Below, in pieces: positions 46,753-50,528 of a DNA stretch of 64,000 nucleotides. The stretch is from NCBI RefSeq assembly GCF_021401085.1, contig NZ_JACBFP010000002.1:248001-312000 (forward strand). The letters are read 5' to 3'. How positions within the stretch are numbered: position 1 is the first letter of the stretch; each line of letters opens with the position of its first letter. The DNA comes from Chryseobacterium sp. R2A-55 (lineage in GTDB: Bacteria > Bacteroidota > Bacteroidia > Flavobacteriales > Weeksellaceae). The translations under genes were made by a program, and so were the position numbers. The notes beneath the pieces were generated by a model, which ran no database searches, was not told where the DNA came from, and was given only the letters and a program-made list of their open reading frames with translations.

Positions 46753-46783
46753 TTTGGCAGAAATAAAAAACTTTATATATTTG
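46753..46783 (+). promoter_or_regulatory. Promoter of tRNA-Asn
   Basis: TTTG (46753-46756), a 19-base spacer, then TATATTTG (46776-46783), an exact fit to the Bacteroidetes TTTG/TAnnTTTG promoter. Transcription would begin about 20 bases before the tRNA. Confidence 0.7.
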
Positions 46784-46808: not shown

Positions 46809-46882
46809 TCCTCCTTAGCTCAGTCGGTTAGAGCATCTGACTGTTAATCAGAGGGTCCTTGGTTCGAGCCCAAGAGGAGGAG
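46809..46882 (+). tRNA. tRNA-Asn(GTT)
   Basis: A complete cloverleaf. Acceptor stem TCCTCCT/AGGAGGA; D-arm with AGTCGGTTA loop; anticodon stem TCTGA/TCAGA with loop CTGTTAA (anticodon GTT at 46843-46845); T-arm CTTGG/CCAAG with loop TTCGAGC; discriminator G. The CCA end is not encoded. The 3' end (from 46870) is the first copy of the direct repeat that bounds the GIY-YIG units downstream. Confidence 0.97.
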
Positions 46883-46887
46883 CAAAC

Positions 46888-46916
46888 ACCATCAGAGAAA
46901 TCTGGTGGTTTTTTTT
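46888..46916 (+). terminator. tRNA-Asn terminator, repeated in each unit
   Basis: CCATCAGA pairs with TCTGGTGG (one wobble) around a GAAA tetraloop, then T8. The next base is the ATG of GIY-YIG gene 1. The same element recurs at 47272-47301 (T9), 47657-47685 (T8) and 48041-48070 (T9). Confidence 0.85.
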
Positions 46917-47225
46917 ATGATCTTCTATATTTACATATTGTTTTCAGAATCTTCGGGGATTTATTATGTCGGTTACACCACCGATGTTTCAAGGCGTTTT
47001 CTGCAGCACAACGAATTTTCCGAGACTTCATTTACCTCGAAGCACCGTCCGTGGAAATTAATGGCGGCGTTTGAAGTTCCTGGAAACGAATCAGACGCGA
47101 TGAAGATCGAAAGATTTATCAAGAAGCAGAAATCTTCAAAGTTTATCCGGAAAATCATTGACGCGAATACTGAATTGACCGGAGTCTTGGCTCAGTTGGT
47201 TAGAGTCCCGATTGTTCGGGATTAA
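46917..47225 (+). CDS. GIY-YIG nuclease family protein, unit 1
   Basis: A 102-residue single-domain GIY-YIG protein of the small YhbQ/UPF0213-like class. The core is FYIYILFS (residues 3-10), IYYVGYTTDVSRRFLQHN (15-32, with the catalytic Arg), and the Glu of KIERFIKK (65). The start ATG directly follows the terminator T-tract, so there is no normal ribosome site and expression from the tRNA promoter would need read-through. Residues 90-102 (VLAQLVRVPIVRD) are encoded by tRNA-derived sequence. The domain is intact, with no frameshift. Substrate unknown. Confidence 0.85.
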   Translation: MIFYIYILFSESSGIYYVGYTTDVSRRFLQHNEFSETSFTSKHRPWKLMAAFEVPGNESDAMKIERFIKKQKSSKFIRKIIDANTELTGVLAQLVRVPIVRD

Positions 47226-47268
47226 TCAGAGGGTCTCCCGAAGTTTCGGGACGCCAAGAGGAGGAGCA
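47185..47268 (+). other. tRNA-like element, unit 1
   Basis: Its pieces match the upstream tRNA-Asn: GGTTAGAG (D-arm), TTAATCAGAGGGTC, and the 3' end from CCAAG. A new 7-bp closing stem forms (TCTTGGC 47185-47191 with GCCAAGA 47253-47259). The anticodon and T arms are replaced by two hairpins with the same stem, TCCCGA/TCGGGA (47206-47221 and 47236-47251). No usable anticodon loop remains. The first 41 bases are also coding sequence for the nuclease C-terminus. Confidence 0.65.
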
Positions 47269-47301
47269 AACACCATCAGAGAAATCTGGTGGTTTTTTTT
47301 T

Positions 47302-47610
47302 ATGATCTTCTATATTTACATATTGTTTTCAGAATCTTCGGGGATTTATTATGTCGGTTACACCACTGATGTTTCAAGGCGTTTTCAGCAGCACAACGAA
47401 TTTTCCGAGACTTCATTTACCTCGAAGCACCGCCCGTGGAAATTAATGGCGGCGTTTGAAGTTCCTGGAAACGAATCAGACGCGATGAAGATCGAGAGAT
47501 TTATCAAGAAGCAGAAATCTTCAAAGTTTATCCGGAAAATCATTGAAACGAATACTGAATTGACCGGAGTCTTGGCTAAGTTGGTTAGAGTCCCGATTAT
47601 TCGGGATTAA
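47302..47610 (+). CDS. GIY-YIG nuclease family protein, unit 2
   Basis: A 102-residue copy, intact. Differences from unit 1 include Gln29 for Leu (SRRFQQHN), KIIETN for KIIDAN, LAKLV for LAQLV, and ending IIRD. The catalytic motif YYVG and the Arg and Glu are kept. The nine-base T-tract leaves an open in-frame extension of about 30 codons upstream, through the unit-1 tRNA-like element, but ATG 47302 is the sensible start. Confidence 0.85.
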   Translation: MIFYIYILFSESSGIYYVGYTTDVSRRFQQHNEFSETSFTSKHRPWKLMAAFEVPGNESDAMKIERFIKKQKSSKFIRKIIETNTELTGVLAKLVRVPIIRD

Positions 47611-47653
47611 TCAGAGGGTCTCCCGAAGTTTCGGGACGCCAAGAGGAGGAGCA
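47570..47653 (+). other. tRNA-like element, unit 2
   Basis: Same layout as the unit-1 element, with hairpin loop TTAT instead of TTGT. The D-arm reads GGCTAAG instead of GGCTCAG, which breaks the D-stem. Confidence 0.6.
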
Positions 47654-47685
47654 AACACCATCAGAGAAATCTGGTGGTTTTTTTT

Positions 47686-47994
47686 ATGACCTACTATATT
47701 TACATATTGTTTTCAGAATCTTCGGGGATTTATTATATCGGTTACAACACCGATGTTTCAAGGCGTTTTCTGCAGCACAACGAATTTTCCGAGACTTCAT
47801 TTACCTCGAAGCACCGTCCGTGGAAATTAATGGCGGCATTTGAAGTTCTTGGAAACGAATCAGACGCGATGAAGATCGAGAGATTTATCAAGAAGCAGAA
47901 ATCTTCAAAGTTTATCCGGAAAATCATTGACGCGAATACTGAATTGACCGGAGTCTTGGCTCAGTTGGTTAGAGTCCCGATTGTTCGGGATTAA
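47686..47994 (+). CDS. GIY-YIG nuclease family protein, unit 3
   Basis: A 102-residue copy, intact, starting MTYYIYILFS. It carries YYIGYNTDV (closer to the canonical YIG) and EVLGNE, both positions differing from units 1-2. The ending IVRD is as in unit 1. It follows an eight-base T-tract. Confidence 0.85.
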   Translation: MTYYIYILFSESSGIYYIGYNTDVSRRFLQHNEFSETSFTSKHRPWKLMAAFEVLGNESDAMKIERFIKKQKSSKFIRKIIDANTELTGVLAQLVRVPIVRD

Positions 47995-48037
47995 TCAGAG
48001 GGTCTCCCGAAGTTTCGGGACGCCAAGAGGAGGAGCA
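47954..48037 (+). other. tRNA-like element, unit 3
   Basis: Same structure as the unit-1 element, including the TTGT hairpin loop and the 7-bp TCTTGGC/GCCAAGA closing stem. Confidence 0.6.
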
Positions 48038-48070
48038 AACACCATCAGAGAAATCTGGTGGTTTTTTTTT

Positions 48071-48379
48071 ATGATCTTCTATATTTACATATTGTTTTCA
48101 GAATCTTCGGGGATTTATTATATCGGTTACACCACCGATGTTTCAAGGCGTTTTCTGCAGCACAACGAATTTTCCGAGACTTCATTTACCTCGAAGCACC
48201 GTCCGTGGAAATTAATGGCGGCATTTGAAGTTCTTGGAAACGAATCAGACGCGATGAAGATCGAGAGATTTATCAAGAAGCAGAAATCTTCAAAGTTTAT
48301 CCGGAAAATCATTGACACGAATACTGAATTGACCGGAGTCTTGGCTCAGTTGGTTAGAGTCCCGATTATTCGGGATTAA
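48071..48379 (+). CDS. GIY-YIG nuclease family protein, unit 4
   Basis: A 102-residue copy, intact. It shares YYIG and EVLGNE with unit 3 but the ending IIRD and the nine-base T-tract with unit 2, so it is a mosaic of the other copies. All catalytic positions are kept. Confidence 0.85.
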   Translation: MIFYIYILFSESSGIYYIGYTTDVSRRFLQHNEFSETSFTSKHRPWKLMAAFEVLGNESDAMKIERFIKKQKSSKFIRKIIDTNTELTGVLAQLVRVPIIRD

Positions 48380-48422
48380 TCAGAGGGTCTCCCGAAGTTT
48401 CGGGACGCCAAGAGGAGGAGCA
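48339..48422 (+). other. tRNA-like element, unit 4 (array end)
   Basis: Same layout as the others, with loop TTAT as in unit 2. It ends with the fifth CCAAGAGGAGGAGCA; the sequence after 48422 is unrelated to the other units. Confidence 0.6.
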
Positions 48423-48555
48423 GAAAGAATTACAGAAATATAGTTTTTTTGTTGGCTGCGTCATCAGCGATTTCCGGAATATCGGAAAGTGAAAAGAATT
48501 CAAACTAAGCTTTGTGCGTTACACAAAGTTTTTTAATTTTAGGAAAATTTAATTT

Positions 48556-49021: not shown

Positions 49022-49750
49022 ATGAAAATTATCCCGATTTTTCTTTTTCTCACCCTTTTCTTCAATGCCCAGGTTTTAGAAAAATACCCGGATTTTCAAG
49101 CACCGTACGTGGGGGGATATCAAGCTTACTATAAAGATTTTCATGATATCATCAAAGAAAAAGATCTTCAGCCCTGTTCCAATCCAAACGAGATTTATCA
49201 GTTCTCAATACTAGTTACGGAAGAGGGATCCATTCAGTTCATCAAGGATCTCAATGAAAAAAATACGAAAAACAACAAGTGCGCATATAATCTCGCAAGA
49301 GAGGTGGCAAAATATCAGAATAAGTGGAATCCCGCCGTGGTTGACGGAGTCAAGCAATCTGCAGTAGCGAGGTTTATTATTTATCCGGCCGATCTTTTCG
49401 AGAATTACAGGGAAGGTTATGTCCCAAATTATACACCGCCAATTTATTACGACAAGAAAACTGGCGAAAGAAGAAACTTTTCCAAAGATTTTGTCATGAA
49501 ATTCGACAAGAAGCGTTTCAACTGGTATGATCTCTTTGTCATCATGGCGGAATTTACTGTGACCACCGATGGAAAGGTGAAAGACATCGTCATCACCAAA
49601 TCTTCCGGAGTGGAGCAGTTTGATAAGGAAATCAAGAACGCAATCAACATCCTTTCAAAAACCTGGAAACCCGCCACAATCAATGGAAGCCCAATTGAAG
49701 ACCGTTTCAGCTTCGCCATTAAGGGGATTACGGAAGTGGAGTATTATTAA
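49022..49750 (+). CDS. Secreted two-domain TonB_C-like protein
   Basis: A 242-residue protein with a signal peptide (IPIFLFLTLFFNAQ). Two repeats of the TonB_C-like fold follow: an N-terminal one with a Cys pair (LQPCSNPNEIYQF and NKCAYNLAREVAKY, possibly disulfide-bonded), and a C-terminal one (EFTVTTDGKVKDIVITKSSG; KTWKPATINGSPI). Same architecture as the next gene, so the two are tandem duplicates. Function unknown. Confidence 0.72.
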   Translation: MKIIPIFLFLTLFFNAQVLEKYPDFQAPYVGGYQAYYKDFHDIIKEKDLQPCSNPNEIYQFSILVTEEGSIQFIKDLNEKNTKNNKCAYNLAREVAKYQNKWNPAVVDGVKQSAVARFIIYPADLFENYREGYVPNYTPPIYYDKKTGERRNFSKDFVMKFDKKRFNWYDLFVIMAEFTVTTDGKVKDIVITKSSGVEQFDKEIKNAINILSKTWKPATINGSPIEDRFSFAIKGITEVEYY

Positions 49751-49775
49751 TGTGATTTAAAAATAAAGTTTTTTA

Positions 49776-50528
49776 ATGGACATCATCCGAAATATGAAAG
49801 TTAGATTATTCCTCACGGTTGCTTTTATGGTGTTTTTCCATCAGAATTTTTTTTCGCAAGAAACGGTGATTTATGACCAATATCCTTACGGACAAGAAGC
49901 ATATCCCGGAGGAAAAAAGCAATTGTATAAAGACATTCACCAAGCAATAATTGACAATAAAATTGAGAAATGTGCGAATCCTATTCAAAAATACAGAGTG
50001 AAGCTGATTGTGCAGAAAGATGCTTCGGTTTTATTCGTGAAGAATCCCGATTCAGCCTATATTGAAAGTAACAAATGCGCGTATGATCTTTCTAAAAATA
50101 TTTTGAAGTACCTCGCGAAATGGAAGCCAGCGGAATACAACAGGGAAAAATTAAATGCCATCTATGAATTCGATATAGTTCCGGCAGATTTGTTCGATGA
50201 ATTTGTTGATGGTTATGTTGGTGTTGGAATCGATCGAAATATCCCGCAATTTCCGGGTGGCCTTGAGGAATTTCGAAATAAGTTTATGAAATTCATTGAG
50301 ATTCCTGAATCTCAGGGTCGAATGAGCTGTGAAGTGTTTTTCAAAATTAATAAAGAAGGTCAGATTGTTGACTTGATTACCAAATCTTCCCCGTATAACG
50401 CAAAGCTGGAGCAAAATATAAAAAATGCGATTGCTAAAATAAAGGATAGATGGATCTTGCCTAAAGATTATGATTCTCGCACCGAGCTGTTTCGTTATCA
50501 ATTACCGCTTAATTTTGAATTTCATTAA
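49776..50528 (+). CDS. Secreted two-domain TonB_C-like protein, tandem paralogue
   Basis: A 250-residue protein. ATG 49794 (MKVRLFLTVAFMVFF) gives the cleanest signal peptide; ATG 49776 adds six residues. The N-terminal repeat keeps the Cys pair (IEKCANPIQKY and NKCAYDLSKNI). The C-terminal repeat begins with the TonB_C lead-in IPQFPGGLEEFRNKF and has INKEGQIVDLITKSS. It lies 25 bp after its paralogue, so the two are probably one transcript. Confidence 0.72.
   Translation: MDIIRNMKVRLFLTVAFMVFFHQNFFSQETVIYDQYPYGQEAYPGGKKQLYKDIHQAIIDNKIEKCANPIQKYRVKLIVQKDASVLFVKNPDSAYIESNKCAYDLSKNILKYLAKWKPAEYNREKLNAIYEFDIVPADLFDEFVDGYVGVGIDRNIPQFPGGLEEFRNKFMKFIEIPESQGRMSCEVFFKINKEGQIVDLITKSSPYNAKLEQNIKNAIAKIKDRWILPKDYDSRTELFRYQLPLNFEFH

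Follow-up and report, generated by a model that had tools for sequence, protein, structure and literature searches.

The window, meaning the whole 64-kb stretch of Chryseobacterium sp. R2A-55 DNA analysed here, contains a single tRNA gene, tRNA-Asn(GTT), which is followed on the same strand by four tandem units of 384 or 385 bp (Table 1). This arrangement had been predicted from the sequence and is borne out by tRNA calling, by the unit spacing of 385/384/385, and by TRF, which reports one array in the window (period 385, 4.0 copies, 97% match). The count of four is that of the draft assembly, and statements on the whole genome, including that of a single tRNA-Asn, are based on searches of its 35 contigs.

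Each unit (hereafter also cassette) is composed, in this order, of the tRNA terminator, a GIY-YIG ORF, and a degenerate tRNA-Asn (psi-tRNA). The terminator hairpin that opens the units is that of the tRNA-Asn itself (dG -12.8, z -4.7), and it is present at cassette-free sites too. A scan for the promoter pattern TTG-N-TATATTTG found no match inside the four units. As predicted, an intact GIY-YIG gene is present in each unit: all four ORFs are open and encode proteins of 102 aa, those of ORFs 2–4 being 95–96% identical to that of ORF 1, and all match the Pfam GIY-YIG family (E 1e-14 to 2e-16).

The 3' end of the tRNA-Asn, CCAAGAGGAGGAGCA, occurs five times (at 46870, 47254, 47639, 48023, and 48408) and thus forms direct repeats at both ends of the units. 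The original prediction took these repeats as the unit boundaries, which holds for the five copies; the 15 bp are, however, the best-kept part of a tRNA copy of about 83 nt. The further claim that the sequence diverges exactly after the fifth copy is not correct, because the sequence found there, GAAAGAATTACAGAAATATAGTTTTTTTG, is a diverged tRNA-Asn terminator, whose alignment score was reached by none of 500 shuffles.

The psi-tRNA-Asn corresponds to tRNA positions 6–75 with two palindromes substituted. It retains the D-arm and the 3' end, and the 5' acceptor strand is gone. The anticodon arm and, here, also the T-arm are replaced by 16-bp palindromes: in the former, CATCTGACTG has become TCCCGATTRTTCGGGA, and the latter is now TCCCGAAGTTTCGGGA. 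The last 12 or so codons of the GIY gene lie in the psi-tRNA and encode the tail LAQLVRVPI(V/I)RD (LAKLVRVPIIRD in unit 2). The psi-tRNA was rejected as a working tRNA, ARAGORN and Rfam calling the intact gene only.

Two successive TonB-C-like proteins of similar size are encoded 3' of the array (49022–50525; Pfam match on the first only) and are likely tandem paralogues. Two database matches were set aside: an Rfam Plastid-ycf2 match on the antisense strand, which is under the gathering score, and Padloc defence-system matches, which are weak only (E > 0.01).

Table 1. Positions of the features of the tRNA-Asn array in the window
Feature	Position	Strand	Remarks
Promoter of tRNA-Asn, Bacteroidetes-type	46754–46783	+	TTG-N-TATATTTG; pattern scan
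tRNA-Asn (GTT), intact	46809–46883	+	Only tRNA-Asn found in the 35-contig draft genome
Unit 1, 384 bp	46885–47268	+	Terminator 46888–46909 and T run, GIY ORF, psi-tRNA
GIY-YIG ORF 1, 102 aa	46917–47225	+	ATG immediately 3' of the terminator T run
psi-tRNA-Asn 1	47186–47268	+	Palindromes 47206–47221, 47236–47251
Unit 2, 385 bp	47269–47653	+	
GIY-YIG ORF 2	47302–47610	+	
psi-tRNA-Asn 2	47571–47653	+	Palindromes 47591–47606, 47621–47636
Unit 3, 384 bp	47654–48037	+	
GIY-YIG ORF 3	47686–47994	+	
psi-tRNA-Asn 3	47955–48037	+	Palindromes 47975–47990, 48005–48020
Unit 4, 385 bp	48038–48422	+	
GIY-YIG ORF 4	48071–48379	+	
psi-tRNA-Asn 4	48340–48422	+	Palindromes 48360–48375, 48390–48405
Right end of array: diverged tRNA-Asn terminator copy	48423–48450	+	GAAAGAATTACAGAAATATAGTTTTTTTG; alignment

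Distribution in Bacteroidota

About 1,220 genome scans of Bacteroidota, in overlapping sets and with the array protein and a Met-type relative as queries, yielded 125 unique loci, not counting one GIY clade that is clearly separate; detection is biased toward relatives of the two queries. At 100 of the 125 loci the GIY gene lies within 700 nt 3' of a tRNA on the same strand, and at 71 within 70 nt, where the chance expectation is well under one (a rough estimate, with roughly 50 tRNAs in 3.5 Mb). None of the seven loci of the separate, related clade is tRNA-linked. A search beside other tRNAs had been proposed, and the same architecture does recur beside many. The host tRNAs are of 14 types: Asn, initiator Met, two other CAT tRNAs, Asp, Ala, Gly, Val, Ser, Arg, Gln, His, Phe, and Pro. 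A partial copy of the same tRNA is found 3' of the GIY gene at 84 of the 100 tRNA-adjacent loci, and more than one GIY gene at 31.

The longest array (L231; G403:C9:904500-913500) has ten near-identical 457-bp GIY units at an initiator tRNA-Met. Other long arrays have eight (L232), seven (L239), or five units (L240 and L241). Among the 25 non-adjacent loci, eight have too little flank, and others are long arrays or have a tRNA 3' fragment only. At L232–L236, for example, the 3' fragment stands alone 5' of the cassette, the intact tRNA being absent within several kb; an island appears to have inserted itself at the tRNA 3' end and so displaced the tRNA from the cassette.

Units also occur in altered form. 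At two tRNA-Ala loci, L006 in the genome of the window (G000:C29) and L022, the GIY gene is accompanied by additional psi-tRNA units, about 145 bp long and without a GIY gene, that carry the palindrome TCCCGAAAG..TTCGGGA; these are apparent non-autonomous units. In the arrays L077 and L078, GIY genes contain in-frame stops (in several copies in L077), and dead units are therefore amplified too. At one further locus (L083), ARAGORN calls the psi-tRNA 3' of the GIY gene a tRNA-Gln, though it is derived from a CAT tRNA, and annotation pipelines may miscall such copies.

Alterations of the psi-tRNAs

In the 84 psi-tRNA regions, the 3'-terminal 14 nt are kept (at least 88% identity to the host tRNA) in 65%. 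At the same threshold the anticodon arm is kept in 7% and the 5' acceptor strand in 6%, and some of these few are adjacent intact tRNAs. Because it is the anticodon arm, and not the 3' end, that is most consistently altered, the target of the nuclease may lie inside the tRNA gene. Psi-tRNAs were also found 5' of an intact tRNA (L009:3797-3892 in Chryseobacterium koreense, and L097). In these the 5' end is retained together with the anticodon palindrome and the 3' end is lost, which makes them the mirror image of the downstream copies. The intact tRNA therefore lies midway in the disturbed region, as expected from events inside the tRNA gene. Loss of the T-arm is not general, because many psi-tRNAs of other tRNA families have an intact T-loop, and T-loop loss was accordingly rejected as a universal mark of self-protection.

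The outer letters of the palindromes vary by tRNA type: TCCCG..CGGGA in Asn, Ala, Val, and Arg, TCCGYC..GRCGGA in the Met types, and TCTCG..CGAGA in Asp within this genus. In the Asn palindromes (TCCCG-N6-CGGGA) the inner six bases vary freely yet symmetrically. Among 26 distinct versions, pair 1–6 is complementary in 26 and pair 2–5 in 21 (each reached by 0 of 10000 shuffles), and the central pair in eight, as by chance; the arms are therefore 7 bp long around a 2-nt centre. Because such a centre is tighter than an RNA hairpin loop (at least 3 nt), the symmetry leans toward selection at the DNA level, of which it is only suggestive, the 26 versions being partly dependent on each other.

Similar palindromes occur elsewhere. 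TCCCG-N2-9-CGGGA has 39 sites in the genome, of which eight are in the Asn array and 11 in the Asn and Ala arrays together. A dispersed, REP-like family was rejected here, since most of the remaining sites that were inspected are imperfect and do not lie near tRNAs. At L070, L013, and L091, the hairpin of the tRNA terminator has a TCCCGAA..TTCGGGA palindrome in its loop.

These alterations may also be read at the RNA level. The GIY protein would then target the matching tRNA or the precursor of this tRNA, and the psi-tRNA would be transcribed and, its anticodon hairpin being uncleavable, serve as decoy, antidote, or regulator. Such a role would agree with the strict match in tRNA type between gene and psi-tRNA, with the consistent replacement of the anticodon arm by a hairpin, and with purifying selection on the nuclease (see below); co-transcription from the tRNA promoter is also likely, because the units have no promoter match. 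It is nevertheless unlikely, considering that the units are placed 3' of a terminator, that the 3' end of the psi-tRNA is kept despite a broken acceptor stem, that the palindromes are symmetric down to a centre too small for an RNA loop, and that the nearest solved relatives of the protein are UPF0213 and SLX1-type DNA branch nucleases.

The GIY-YIG protein

The protein belongs to the GIY-YIG superfamily (PF01541, 57.8 bits against a cut-off of 22.6). The domain occupies residues 3–74 of the 102 aa found here; at other tRNA types the protein has about 80–90 aa. The best match by both sequence and fold is the UPF0213 (YhbQ/YazA type) protein BH0048 (1zg2), with Slx1-type nucleases next. The sequence matches are 1zg2 and 7wme, and the AF2 model (pLDDT 85.6) is matched by Foldseek to 1zg2 and Slx1 structures, the catalytic domain of I-TevI being a weaker match. 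The array nuclease is without the separate DNA-recognition domain of homing enzymes, and it resembles UPF0213/SLX1 more than it does a classical two-domain homing enzyme. Because of this match and the lack of an added DNA-binding domain, a structure-sensing nuclease, which would act on hairpins of the tRNA gene or of the palindromes, is more plausible than a classical homing enzyme with a long site. SLX1 requires a partner, and no link to tRNA genes is known for the deposited UPF0213 and SLX1 proteins.

Empty sites, copy number and selection

The association with tRNA type is reflected in the phylogeny of the nuclease. On a tree of 76 proteins from many taxonomic families (psi-encoded tail excluded), the tRNA type changes 18 times, compared with 45.2 changes when the labels are shuffled (0 of 200 shuffles as low), and the GIY clade not linked to tRNAs is separate.

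The syntenic rseP-tRNA-Asn site was compared in 30 congeners, one genome per species. It is empty in 27, without any psi-tRNA remnant, and filled in three, namely the window genome, C. koreense, and G021. Empty and occupied alleles thus exist at one site, as for a free-standing homing endonuclease gene. Four copies in all relatives with no empty site, which the original prediction had named as evidence against mobility, is not the pattern observed. A difference in copy number was also found between sister species, with four GIY units in the window and two, together with one 5' psi-tRNA, in C. koreense.

One of the 27 genomes with an empty site (G006) has cassettes farther downstream, next to a second tRNA-Asn. 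The cassettes of G021 and G006 are about 50% identical in protein sequence and their rseP proteins 80%, a divergence that may reflect separate acquisition, which it fits without proving. The Asn cassettes of the genus are scattered in the tree, and a single clade for them is not rejected by the AU test (p 0.13).

Between the window genome and C. koreense the nuclease has a dS of 0.6–0.9 and a dN/dS of 0.12–0.19, and is under purifying selection. Between the units within each of the two arrays dS is below 0.07. Low dS within arrays together with high dS between species indicates that amplification or homogenisation took place separately in each array. The view of the locus as a compact, tRNA-bound element with an intact nuclease under selection is supported.

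Comparison with known systems

No phage record matched the nuclease at E 1e-5, nor did any PHROGs family. In plasmids just two distant matches were found, both in Legionella. Nine GIY relatives are located on viral contigs with no tRNA near any of them, and the psi pattern was found in none of the viral contigs searched. A phage or plasmid origin of the cassette was rejected on the phage and plasmid searches, and the lack of any PHROGs or phage match leaves the nuclease outside the SegB family.

The absence of an integrase, as predicted, extends to the seven neighbouring genes (43.8–52.1 kb), so that the integrase in cis of an integrase-mobilised element or CIME is missing. CIMEs and att-flanked mini-elements at tRNA genes may likewise form tandem units with tRNA 3' copies between them. 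The array could therefore consist of att-flanked mini-elements accreted through tyrosine integrases acting in trans, with the GIY gene as cargo or as a guard against further integration. The tRNA 3' copies at the unit borders and the island-like loci L232–L236, with only a tRNA 3' fragment before the GIY gene, would be consistent with this, as would the fact that integrases cross over in the anticodon and T-loops, whose arms are altered in the psi-tRNA. With an altered anticodon arm, however, the attachment core would be destroyed; a duplicated attachment site is absent from ordinary empty sites, no integrase adjoins the array, and cargo would not be expected to consist of one nuclease family, conserved in every unit and matched clade by clade to tRNA type. 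Accretion of this kind is regarded as distinctly unlikely.

The tyrT/tyrV repeats of E. coli (rttR/tpr) resemble the array in that every one of their tandem units closes with the 3' end of the tRNA itself; in tyrV, three 19-nt copies of the tRNA-Tyr 3' end with a spacing of 178 bp were re-verified. They differ in the absence of a nuclease gene, in having a 3' fragment only, and in their restriction to one tRNA type. The existence of such nuclease-free repeats would be compatible with a passive tandem duplication of the tRNA locus, in which the GIY gene hitch-hikes and the psi-tRNAs are decay products. This explanation is already disfavoured and is considered very unlikely, because it does not account for a single nuclease family across 14 tRNA types or for purifying selection, and because replacement of the same arm by self-complementary palindromes across taxonomic families is not expected of simple decay.

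SegB, a free-standing GIY-YIG homing endonuclease of T-even phages, cuts within tRNA genes, and in phage T6 it causes tandem amplification of tRNA-segB by recombination (PMC13096335). Like segB, the array nuclease gene adjoins a tRNA gene. In contrast to SegB, which is phage-borne and amplifies a functional tRNA with no palindromic psi-tRNA reported, the array is chromosomal and encodes a bare UPF0213/SLX1-like domain. Neither SegB nor tyrV has a nuclease matched to tRNA type together with a palindromic psi-tRNA in each unit.

The SegB-driven tRNA amplification in phage T6 is protective (PMC13096335), and the genome searches found no tRNA-Asn other than the one that carries the cassette. It may thus be proposed that the array benefits the host, for example by guarding a tRNA gene that is essential and single-copy against integrating elements or tRNA-targeting attack, with array size setting the dosage. 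The copies amplified here are non-functional tRNAs, however, and the distribution is patchy (in the genus, cassettes at 3 of the 30 rseP-tRNA-Asn sites; Asn psi pattern in 20 of 395 genomes of the class), which makes a host benefit quite improbable.

Proposed mechanism

The favoured explanation, to which we give about an even chance, is that the array is a chromosomal, homing-like selfish cassette specific to a tRNA type, in which the tRNA is kept whole by duplication of its 3' half. The array belongs to a Bacteroidota-wide family of tRNA-bound elements that are probably selfish.

Each cassette is a small single-domain GIY-YIG gene right behind the tRNA terminator, with a psi-tRNA derived from that tRNA after it, and would work like a homing endonuclease gene. 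The nuclease would break the cassette-free tRNA gene of a recipient, most likely in the region of the anticodon and T-arms, and might recognize its target through the hairpin or dyad structure of the tRNA gene. Repair of the break through homologous recombination would draw on a copy that bears the cassette, with the intact tRNA as the left arm and the 3' half of the psi-tRNA plus the terminator as the right arm. Such repair would install the cassette and leave one complete tRNA. The palindromes of the psi-tRNA could either replace the arm used by the nuclease, as self-protection, or constitute its symmetric site of action. Tandem growth to 2–10 units would follow when units break and exchange unequally with each other. 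Against homing stand the protein, which is essentially a bare GIY-YIG domain without the DNA-binding domain of known homing enzymes, the AU test, which does not reject one clade for the Asn cassettes of the genus, the lack of matches in phage records with only two distant ones in plasmids, and the T-loops left intact in many psi-tRNAs.

More tentatively, and with less than an even chance, the cassettes may represent a new class of element, distributed across Bacteroidota. Its structure-specific, single-domain GIY-YIG nucleases would be specialised clade by clade for individual tRNA genes and, with the palindromic psi-tRNA as homology arm and as self-protection or symmetric cleavage site, would rebuild and amplify the invaded locus. 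No description of chromosomal tRNA-GIY-YIG cassettes was found in the openly licensed PMC literature, although subscription journals may hold one, and nothing relevant was found there on tyrT/rtT or on UPF0213/YhbQ.

Implications

If the favoured explanation is true, tRNA genes of a major phylum would harbour widespread and overlooked minimal parasites, each consisting of one gene of about 80–100 codons and a rewritten tRNA. It would account for many of the small 'GIY-YIG nuclease family protein' annotations beside tRNAs, and would allow tandem amplification driven by a nuclease to be studied in a natural chromosomal setting, parallel to the recent result on SegB in phage. The target specificity is open to direct test through the nuclease clades matched to tRNA type. 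The cassettes would also show that an essential, sometimes single-copy, tRNA gene can be exploited without death of the host.
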